This document shows, piece after piece, positions 32,166 through 45,681 of a stretch of 64,000 nt of DNA. The position numbers and the translations under genes were made by a program. Below the pieces are notes generated by a model. That model was given only the letters and a program-made list of their open reading frames with translations, searched no databases and was not told the DNA's origin. Within the stretch, counting starts at the first letter, position 1, and every line of letters starts with the position of its first letter. Source of the DNA: Dietzia sp. JS16-p6b (GTDB taxonomy: Bacteria; Actinomycetota; Actinomycetes; Mycobacteriales; Mycobacteriaceae); assembly GCF_003052165.1 (NCBI RefSeq), contig NZ_CP024869.1, forward strand, positions 2,638,001-2,702,000, read 5' to 3'.

Positions 32166-33392
32166 TTGGAGTCCACGACGGAGGGCCGGCACCGGGTCGG
32201 CGCGCTGGCCGGGATGCTGGTGCTGGAACTGGGGACCCTCATCGCGGGGCCCTTCGCCGGCCGCCTCCTGGGCGACATGGGCGCGCGGGTCGTCAAGATC
32301 GAGGATCCGGGCCGGCCGGACCCGCTGCGCACGTGGGGCCAGGGCGAGCGCGACGGTCGCCGCCACTTCTGGACCGTCCACGCACGCAACAAGGAGTCGA
32401 TCACCCTCGACCTGCGCTGCGGAGACGGCGCGGCGATCTTCCTCGATCTCGTCGCCCGCGCCGACGTCGTGGTGGAGAACTTCCGCCCGGGCACCCTGGA
32501 GAGATGGGGCCTGGGGCCGGACAGGCTCCACGAGGTCAACCCCGGACTCGTGATCGGCCGGGTCTCCGGTTACGGCCAGAGCGGCCCCCACGCCGCCCGC
32601 GCGGGGTACGCCTCCGTCGCCGAGGGGGTCTCGGGTCTACGTCACCTCAACGGCTTCCCCGACATGCCCCCGCCGCGCATGGCCCTGTCCCTCGGCGACA
32701 CCCTGGGCGGCATGTTCGCCGTCCAGGGCGTCCTCGCCGCGCTGCTGGCACGCGCCACCACCGGCCGCGGCCAGGTCGTGGACGTCGCGCTCACCGAGTC
32801 GTGCCTAGCGGTGCAGGAATCGGTGATCCCCGACTTCGACGCGGCGGGCGTGGTGCGCGGCCCGTCCGGCACCCGGTTGGAGGGGATCGCCCCGTCGAAC
32901 CTCTACCGCGCCGCGGACGGGGTGTGGGTCATCATCGCCGCCAACCAGGACACCGTATTTCGGCGGTTGTGCGACGCGATGGGGCGACCCGGGCTCGCGC
33001 AGGACCCGCGCTTCGTCGACCACTCCGCGCGCGGGGTGCACCAGGACCAGATCGACGAGATCATCGCCGACTGGGCCGCGGAGCGCACGGCCGAGGAGAT
33101 CGCCACCGTCCTGGAGGCGGCCGGCGTCGTGGTGGGGCCGGTCAACACCGTCGCGGACGTGGTCCGGGACGAGCAGTTCCTCGCACGCGACATGCTCGTT
33201 CCCCACACCGTGCCCGGGGTCGACGACACGGTCCTCGGCCCCGGCGTCGTCCCCGTGCTGGACGCCACCCCCGGGTCGGTGCGGCGCGGTGGGACGCCCG
33301 AGCCGGGGTTCGACAACGACGCGATCTACCGCGACCTGCTCGGCCTGGACGACGCGCGCCTGGCCGATCTGGCCGACCGCGGCGTCATCTGA
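32166..33392 (+). CDS. CaiB/BaiF-type (class III) CoA-transferase
   Basis: A 408-residue family III CoA-transferase. It begins (TTG start, AAGGGAG upstream) with GMLVLELGTLIAGPFAGRLL, then MGARVVKIEDPGRPDPLR and VENFRPGTLERWGL, all conserved. In many members the catalytic Asp follows GY or GF. Here the site reads ARAGYASVAEGVSGLRHL, and an Asp appears later in LSLGDTLGG. That pattern resembles the succinate-hydroxymethylglutarate/citramalate transferase subgroup, as I remember it. The neighbour on the other strand is an HMG-CoA-lyase-like gene, which suits that reading. CoA donor and acceptor remain inferred. Confidence 0.85.
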   Translation: MESTTEGRHRVGALAGMLVLELGTLIAGPFAGRLLGDMGARVVKIEDPGRPDPLRTWGQGERDGRRHFWTVHARNKESITLDLRCGDGAAIFLDLVARADVVVENFRPGTLERWGLGPDRLHEVNPGLVIGRVSGYGQSGPHAARAGYASVAEGVSGLRHLNGFPDMPPPRMALSLGDTLGGMFAVQGVLAALLARATTGRGQVVDVALTESCLAVQESVIPDFDAAGVVRGPSGTRLEGIAPSNLYRAADGVWVIIAANQDTVFRRLCDAMGRPGLAQDPRFVDHSARGVHQDQIDEIIADWAAERTAEEIATVLEAAGVVVGPVNTVADVVRDEQFLARDMLVPHTVPGVDDTVLGPGVVPVLDATPGSVRRGGTPEPGFDNDAIYRDLLGLDDARLADLADRGVI

Positions 33393-33414: not shown

Positions 33415-33464
33415 GCGGGCAGGGTCAGCCAGCGGACGGGGTCAGCCGGCGGGCAGGGTCAGCC
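33415..33464. repeat. Degenerate ~16-bp repeats at the convergent gene junction
   Basis: The 16-mer gcgggcagggtcagcc occurs identically at 33415-33430 and 33449-33464, with two more partial copies between and after. It spans the junction between the CoA-transferase and the convergent HMG-CoA-lyase-like gene and overlaps the latter's stop codon (33459-33461). Confidence 0.75.
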
Positions 33465-34394
33465 AACGGGCAGGGTCCAGTCGAACCGGTGGCCGTTGCC
33501 GTGCGCTCCCGCGGCGGTACGCGAGCGCGAGTCCTCCCCCAATTCGGCGAGCATCCGGTCGGACGCCCCGACGAGCGCGTGGAAGCATCCGGGGTCGAGC
33601 CAGTCGGGGCGGAGCGCGAACAGGACGTCCTCGGTGGCCGTGTTGCCAGAGGCACCGGGGGCGAACGGGCAGCCGCCGAGACCGCCGAGCGCCGCGTCCA
33701 CCATCCGCGCGCCCGCGTCGACCGCGGCCAGCGTGTTGGCCACGCCCATCCCCCACGTGTCATGACCGTGGAAGACGATCCGCCGGTCGCCCGCCGGTTC
33801 GACGACGGCGGCGACGAGGTCCCGTACCTGACGCGGGTGGGCGTGACCGAGCGTGTCGGCCAGGACGACATCGACCGTTCCCTCCCCGCGCGGGTCGGCG
33901 ACCAGCCGCAGCACCCGCTCCGGATCGACTGGGCCCGTGAAGGGGCAGGTGAACGCGGTCGCCAGGCAGAGCTGGACCGTCCCGCCGACCGAGGCGGCGG
34001 CCTGCACCGCATCGGGCAGCGCCGCCACACTCGTCTCGGTGTCGCGACCGATGTTGGCGGTGTTGTGCTCGTCGGTGACCGACAGGCAGTACTGGAAGCG
34101 GCGGACACCCGCGTCTGCCGCGCGGCGGACGTGCCCCGGCGTGGCCACCCACACCCAGCAGCGGTCCCGCTCGTCCTCGTCCAGGGCCGCGACGACGTCG
34201 AGCGTGTCCGCGAGCGCCGGGACGAGATCCGGCCGGGCCATGGACCCCACCTCGAGATCCGGCACACCGAGCCCGAGCAGCGTCCGCACGAGCGTCACCT
34301 TGGACGCGGTGGACAGCCGACCGTCGGTGAGCTGCAGTCCGTCGCGCAGGGCCACGTCGCGGACGGCGACCGTCCTCGTCGGGTAGCTGTCCAT
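33459..34394 (-). CDS. HMG-CoA lyase-like (DRE-TIM) enzyme
   Basis: A 311-residue TIM-barrel of the HMG-CoA lyase/isopropylmalate synthase group. The first strand reads VAVRDVALRDGLQL (the catalytic Arg-Asp), the metal His pair is in FHGHDTWGMGVAN, and the flexible-loop segment GGLGGCPFAPGASGNTATED carries the catalytic Cys typical of HMG-CoA lyase. It likely cleaves HMG-CoA or a related 3-hydroxy-3-methyl acyl-CoA in leucine or branched-acid breakdown. It converges with the CoA-transferase across a short repeat-filled gap, so the two may share a pathway (inference). ATG 34394. Confidence 0.85.
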   Translation of the reverse strand: MDSYPTRTVAVRDVALRDGLQLTDGRLSTASKVTLVRTLLGLGVPDLEVGSMARPDLVPALADTLDVVAALDEDERDRCWVWVATPGHVRRAADAGVRRFQYCLSVTDEHNTANIGRDTETSVAALPDAVQAAASVGGTVQLCLATAFTCPFTGPVDPERVLRLVADPRGEGTVDVVLADTLGHAHPRQVRDLVAAVVEPAGDRRIVFHGHDTWGMGVANTLAAVDAGARMVDAALGGLGGCPFAPGASGNTATEDVLFALRPDWLDPGCFHALVGASDRMLAELGEDSRSRTAAGAHGNGHRFDWTLPVG

Positions 34395-34449
34395 GAGGAC
34401 ATCCTCTCCTATCCGGGCACGATGGGTGGTGGTGAGCGGGGCTGCGAGC

Positions 34450-34511
34450 GCGCGGGGCCCGCGGCATTTCGAGGCGGCGGCCGCCGCCTCGAAATGCCGC
34501 GGGCCCCGCGC
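34450..34511. terminator. Perfect 62-bp palindrome after rplA, probable terminator
   Basis: Two 31-bp arms (34450-34480 and 34481-34511) are exact reverse complements with no spacer. It lies ~40 bp past the rplA stop (34551) and ~55 bp before the start of the HMG-CoA-lyase-like gene. As RNA it would fold into a very long stem. The likeliest job is ending rplKA transcription, but the length and perfection are far beyond what termination needs. Confidence 0.8.
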
Positions 34512-34550
34512 CGGAATCCGGTCACGGGGCCCTGCGGGCGCGAGATCAAC

Positions 34551-45560: not shown

Positions 45561-45595
45561 ACGAAGGCCGCCCACGACGCGTGGGCGGCCTTCGT
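45561..45595. terminator. Terminator between tctA and tRNA-Met
   Basis: A perfect 15-bp stem (45561-45575 with 45581-45595) with a 5-nt loop, 15 bp past the tctA stop and 13 bp from the convergent tRNA-Met 3' end. It probably works in both directions. Confidence 0.85.
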
Positions 45596-45607
45596 GATCC
45601 TGATCGG

Positions 45608-45681
45608 TACCGGTGGGGGGACTCGATCCCCCGACCTCACGATTATGAGTCGTGCGCTCTAACCAGCTGAGCTACACCGGC
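45608..45681 (-). tRNA. tRNA-Met (CAU), elongator-like
   Basis: A 74-nt cloverleaf: acceptor GCCGGTG/CACCGGT with a G1-U72 wobble, D arm GCTC/GAGC, anticodon loop CTCATAA (CAU), T arm GGGGG/CCCCC, discriminator A. The normal D loop and paired position 1 argue against initiator tRNA. tRNA-Ile2 with a modified CAU cannot be excluded from sequence alone. CCA is not encoded. Probably co-transcribed behind tRNA-Thr. Confidence 0.85.

Follow-up and report, generated by a model that had tools for sequence, protein, structure and literature searches.

How did a perfect palindrome of 62 bp come to stand behind a ribosomal protein gene of Dietzia sp. JS16-p6b, and what does it do there? The palindrome was found in the window, that is, the whole stretch of DNA analysed (64,000 nucleotides, positions 2,638,001–2,702,000 of a single-contig 3.72-Mb genome, with a G+C content of 70% over the first 464 kb of sampled sequence). 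Exact sequence comparison bore out the preliminary description of a perfect and spacerless structure at 34450–34511: the arms at 34450–34480 and 34481–34511 are exact reverse complements (31 + 31 nt, 0-nt spacer), and the whole reads identically on both strands. It is placed within a 156-nt gap (34395–34550) between two minus-strand genes, rplA upstream, encoding ribosomal protein L1 (34551–35273; PF00687, E 4.5e-67), and an HMGL-like (HMG-CoA-lyase family) gene downstream (33459–34394; PF00682, E 2.8e-38). The latter is convergent with a plus-strand CoA-transferase family III gene (32166–33392). Scanned against Rfam at gathering thresholds, the window yielded four tRNAs and nothing else; no family was assigned to the palindrome.

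Such a structure is far beyond chance. At the sampled base composition, one would expect about 9e-11 spacerless palindromes with arms of 31 bp per 3.72 Mb, and the longest arms in three order-1 Markov simulations of 864 kb each were 12, 15 and 11 nt (loops up to 12). The 167 nt around the palindrome fold at −103.1 kcal/mol (z = −6.53), and none of 200 shuffles folded equally well. The genome itself was sampled in the window and in 40 further 20-kb stretches (together 864 kb, 23% of the chromosome), and among the 104 perfect hairpins found there (arms of 10 or more, loops no longer than 12) the palindrome ranks first. Arms reach at least 20 in three of these 104; the runners-up have arms of 25 bp (loop 4), at L145:6785–6838 (C1:806785–806838), and of 22 bp (loop 0). 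A second spacerless perfect palindrome, of 44 bp and about 55% G+C against 70% for the genome, lies at L155:11455–11498 (C1:2811455–2811498); no further copy of this 44-bp sequence was found in the same genome or in the 22 other genus genomes searched. Within the window, a perfect 16-bp hairpin with a 3-nt loop (45561–45595), probably a terminator, stands 12 nt beyond the 3′ end of a tRNA gene on the minus strand (45608–45681). In two same-genus relatives, sampled over 200 kb each, the longest arms were 18 nt (G013) and 30 nt with a 10-nt loop (G019). The perfect hairpins of G019 include the one with 30-bp arms (L179:1162–1231), in each arm of which the unit ATCCGCTAC or its complement occurs twice, and another with 24-bp arms and a 1-nt loop (L176:6099–6147). 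Long perfect hairpins are therefore uncommon in the genus, yet not confined to the rplA site.

The preliminary description had suggested that the palindrome might be a mobile palindromic unit, a REP-, MITE- or similar element inserted after rplA and then co-opted as a terminator. An extragenic location and perfect dyad symmetry are what such a unit would display, and further copies were accordingly sought at several levels. In the palindrome's own genome no second copy was found, the next matches covering 25 nt (88%) or 20 nt (95%), with E 0.04. Across the 22 other genomes of the genus, with all first-look candidates scored, the best match of the 62-bp query took in 23 nt of it at 96% (E 0.002), and the weak matches among those listed mostly cover the central GGCGGCGGCCGCCGCC part; a longer query likewise revealed no second copy. 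A family-level search over 301 genomes gave a match in 17, one being the palindrome's own genome; the 16 of 300 others hold partial matches of 24–62 nt at 75–96%, in a search that is less complete than that of the genus because at most three candidates were scored per genome. Among phage and plasmid records (best 20 of 34 and best 20 of 115, respectively) partial matches only were found, with a best E of 0.04 among the matches listed and none covering 80% of a longer, 167-nt query. The several copies per genome or in relatives that define REP or MITE families are thus not seen at any of these levels, and one arm of the palindrome corresponds to ancestral local sequence, as described below. We therefore rejected a mobile element, which at this site would be very improbable indeed.

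The likely starting state of the palindrome can be read from the relatives. A DNA search of the genus, covering the palindrome's own genome and 22 others, returned an alignable rplA locus in 21 of the 22; the lone genome without one, G021, is 64% complete and gave a 25-nt match only. A hairpin of about 14–16 pairs with a GGCCCC..GGGGCC core follows rplA in 20 of these 21 relatives, L024 being without the core, and this core is mostly (A)GGCCCCGCGACCGG..CCGGCGCGGGGCC(T) or a near variant. These 20 hairpins are not all independent, since some are identical here (L007/L008, L009/L011). A T-rich GCATTTC-like motif occurs at most 22 nt past the stem in 14 of the 20 hairpin-bearing relatives (L007–L015, L017, L019, L020, L022 and L023) and is absent from the other six (L004, L005, L006, L016, L018 and L021), of which the first three are among the closest relatives by rplA; the motif may mark the point at which RNA polymerase is released. 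The corresponding hairpin is retained in the window at 34501–34532 on the minus strand (GGGCCCCGTGACCGGATTCCGGCGCGGGGCCC), where sequence, fold and the shared core identify it as the ancestral, terminator-like hairpin of rplA. It begins 18 nt past the rplA stop codon, is predicted to form 14 pairs (one of them G–U) with one bulged A at −29.4 kcal/mol when folded alone, and is followed by GCGGCATTTCGAGG.

The palindrome can be dissected against this background. Its first arm in transcription order (34481–34511, minus strand) consists of the 3′ arm of the terminator (34501–34511) and the downstream tail with the GCATTTC motif (34491–34497), and is probably the original copy; its second arm (34450–34480, minus strand), the exact reverse complement of the first, would be the derived one. 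Neither the palindrome nor arm 2 was found at the rplA loci of the 21 relatives, where the 320 nt following rplA hold no perfect hairpin with an arm longer than 15 nt. The HMGL-like neighbour is present in the flank sequence of 8 of the 21, seven of which were used for a downstream alignment (L008 was omitted, the region looking the same as in L007). Past arm 2, the end of the intergenic region and the start of the HMGL-like gene align with the relatives that have the same downstream gene. Both outer flanks thus align with relatives sharing this gene, so the insertion lay inside a normal intergenic region. Beyond the hairpin the tails of the relatives have strongly diverged and the immediate pre-duplication sequence is kept in none of them; both the ancestral hairpin and the tail are still present in the window genome.

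We consider it likely that the site is the terminator of the rplA unit carrying an inverted duplication, seen in this genome alone, that arose, most simply, through a template switch. A single event would suffice, in which the 3′ arm of the hairpin and its tail, 31 nt in all, were copied as a reverse complement directly behind themselves. Template switching during replication is a known route to perfect reverse-complement copies at imperfect or short hairpins, and it would be the most economical cause here: the polymerase would stall at the GC-rich terminator hairpin, the nascent strand would fold back, possibly turning at the GGCGGCGG/CCGCCGCC centre, and the folded-back strand would copy itself into the terminator arm before the polymerase resumed on its template. 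We infer this mutational mechanism from the footprint at the site, an exact reverse-complement copy of adjoining ancestral sequence that none of the 21 relatives carries. A pre-existing quasi-palindrome was looked for as a starting point, and none of the 45-nt tails of the 20 hairpin-bearing relatives stands out from its shuffles: their fold z-scores range from −1.34 to +1.53, against −4.72 for the tail of the window genome, and the tail hairpins predicted in several relatives (for example, L007/L008 and L017) are in no case better than their shuffles.

A spacerless perfect inverted copy without counterpart in relatives could also be produced by fold-back of a polymerase during library preparation, and the palindrome is known from a single assembly of one strain; arm 2 would then be missing from the real chromosome. 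A simple fold-back, however, would run into inverted upstream sequence, whereas the expected downstream intergenic region and HMGL gene resume after arm 2. The genome, moreover, is one contig, 100% complete and 0.02% contaminated. Such an assembly or library artefact is quite improbable in our estimation, and the palindrome looks real.

It also looks recent. There are no mismatches between the arms in 31 pairs (62 sites), which gives a rough 95% upper limit of 3/62 = 0.048 changes per site, and four-fold sites of rplA differ by 0.14–0.22 from those of eight relatives. This comparison points to a recent origin, or else to correction of one arm by the other. Recent origin, one of the reasons put forward in the preliminary description for the survival of the palindrome, is thus probably right, given the identity of the arms and the lack of arm 2 in 21 relatives. 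Lack of an SbcCD-type activity was another of these reasons. No protein of the genome passed the curated cut-offs for SbcC and SbcD, which were also missed by controls, SbcC being passed in 1 and SbcD in 8 of 14 control genomes. At L131:10049–14139 (about C1:2125049–2129139), we noted overlapping open reading frames for a metallophosphoesterase resembling SbcD and an ATPase resembling Rad50/SbcC, both below the curated cut-offs.

Selection may be invoked instead, a 31-bp stem being retained for a role in stopping transcription on both strands or in protecting the rplA mRNA. The hairpin is very stable on both strands, and other long perfect hairpins do occur, with arms of 22 and 25 in our sample of the same genome and of 24 and 30 in one relative. 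We further compared 102 actinobacterial rplA loci, namely those of the palindrome's own genome, of the 21 same-genus relatives and of the best 80 of 589 rplA protein matches in named genomes, these 80 including an actinobacterial MAG (L037) at 93% and other genera at no more than 81%. The longest perfect hairpin within up to 250 nt downstream of rplA has arms of 4–31 nt, the 31 being our site and the next longest 22, 21 and 20 nt. A stem of this length is nevertheless not seen in the 21 relatives; in 20 of them a hairpin of about 14–16 pairs stands in its place. Identical arms leave no compensatory changes to be observed. Although the palindrome would act on both strands, there is no sign of selection for it, and we regard a stem kept by selection as unlikely. 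The palindrome is, in our reading, most likely a copying accident, neither a mobile element nor a new system.

A second question is whether the site still works as a terminator. In its closeness to the stop codon (within about 50 nt) and its conservation at the orthologous place in the relatives, the GC-rich hairpin agrees with what is expected of the I-shaped intrinsic terminators reported in mycobacteria. The U-tract that an L-shaped terminator would carry directly after the stem is missing, the only candidate being the ATTT in GCATTTC, which starts at the 6th nt past the stem, and a terminator pattern scan listed no terminator at the palindrome site. The available portion of PMC12288462 states that terminators lacking a poly-U tail are the usual kind in mycobacterial genes; it also describes intrinsic terminators as scarce in mycobacteria and Rho-dependent termination as dominant, and lists a paper whose title says that the mycobacterial polymerase needs a U-tract. 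Since this picture is mixed, termination at the rplA-end hairpin is likely, not certain. As for the link to termination made in the preliminary description, it stands in so far as a terminator-like hairpin is found in nearly all relatives, and falls where it assigned this role to a mobile unit. The same description had held that a unique arm, with a short hairpin in close relatives, would leave a mere terminator lengthened by chance. This is largely what we observed, but half of the terminator was apparently duplicated in inverted orientation and, to judge from the sequences, does not appear to have been extended base by base.

RNA folding suggests how the two overlapping structures might share the transcript. 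The palindrome alone folds into 29 pairs with a 4-nt loop at −72.4 kcal/mol. In folds of a growing transcript, measured from the rplA stop codon, the ancestral hairpin is still present at 100 nt and the long hairpin has taken the shared arm at 105 nt, and we infer from these models a refolding from the one to the other. The ancestral hairpin would thus form first and end most transcripts; only those that read through would make the far stronger second hairpin, which takes over the shared 3′ arm and could act on both strands as a back-up barrier. Arm 2 would rarely be transcribed if the ancestral hairpin does terminate. On this modelling, the site most likely still serves as the terminator at the end of rplA, with the extra hairpin predicted to form on read-through alone. 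A further step would be that the duplication created a two-state RNA element, in which the 11 nt at 34501–34511 pair either upstream, in the terminator, or downstream, in the 31-bp hairpin, and that read-through regulates the HMGL-like gene; the two proposals together are a long shot. Were they true, read-through would open the terminator and expose a double-stranded substrate of the RNase III type, the level of co-expression of the HMGL-like gene with the rplA unit would be set in this way, and a regulatory link would have arisen from a single mutation.

Taken as an inverted duplication of half a terminator, the palindrome reveals no new element or system. It appears to offer a clean natural case, still free of decay, in which a short terminator hairpin gave rise in a single step to a long perfect palindrome; the host is a high-GC bacterium, and its relatives display the likely starting state. 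As such, it could provide a modest test of template-switch mutation at terminators. Among the matches listed in a literature search on template switching with palindromes, inverted duplication or terminators, no title pointed to a half-duplicated terminator in bacteria or to this locus.

The class to which the site belongs is already known: according to the accessible part of a survey of 118,019 genomes, perfect inverted repeats cluster immediately after the stop codons of bacterial genes, and some bacteria have perfect repeats that are far longer (PMC13155455). Our palindrome is the extreme member of this class among the 102 rplA loci compared. It shares with the repetitive extragenic palindromes of the REP type, as presented in the excerpt of PMC3733652 that we consulted, an extragenic position behind a gene, and differs from them in being a single copy outside any repeat family, with one half consisting of ancestral local sequence. 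The resemblance to the I-shaped intrinsic terminators of mycobacteria, in the portion of PMC12288462 cited above, lies in a GC-rich hairpin less than 50 nt from the stop codon without a U-tract; here, in contrast, an overlapping perfect palindrome with 31-bp arms shares the 3′ arm of the hairpin, and termination is predicted. The closest parallel in mechanism is provided by quasipalindrome template-switch mutations. Partial texts describe template switching at imperfect palindromes in Escherichia coli (PMC7202029) and perfect RNA hairpins created in one event by template switching in RNA genes (PMC8794818), and a third, likewise seen in part, cites the same idea for short inverted repeats (PMC4060949). 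In the first two of these, as is proposed for the rplA site, a perfect inverted copy arises in one step beside or within an existing hairpin. Whereas the E. coli reporters, as far as the excerpt of PMC7202029 goes, contain an 18-bp quasipalindrome and a 4-bp frameshift, about 31 nt appear to have been added behind rplA.
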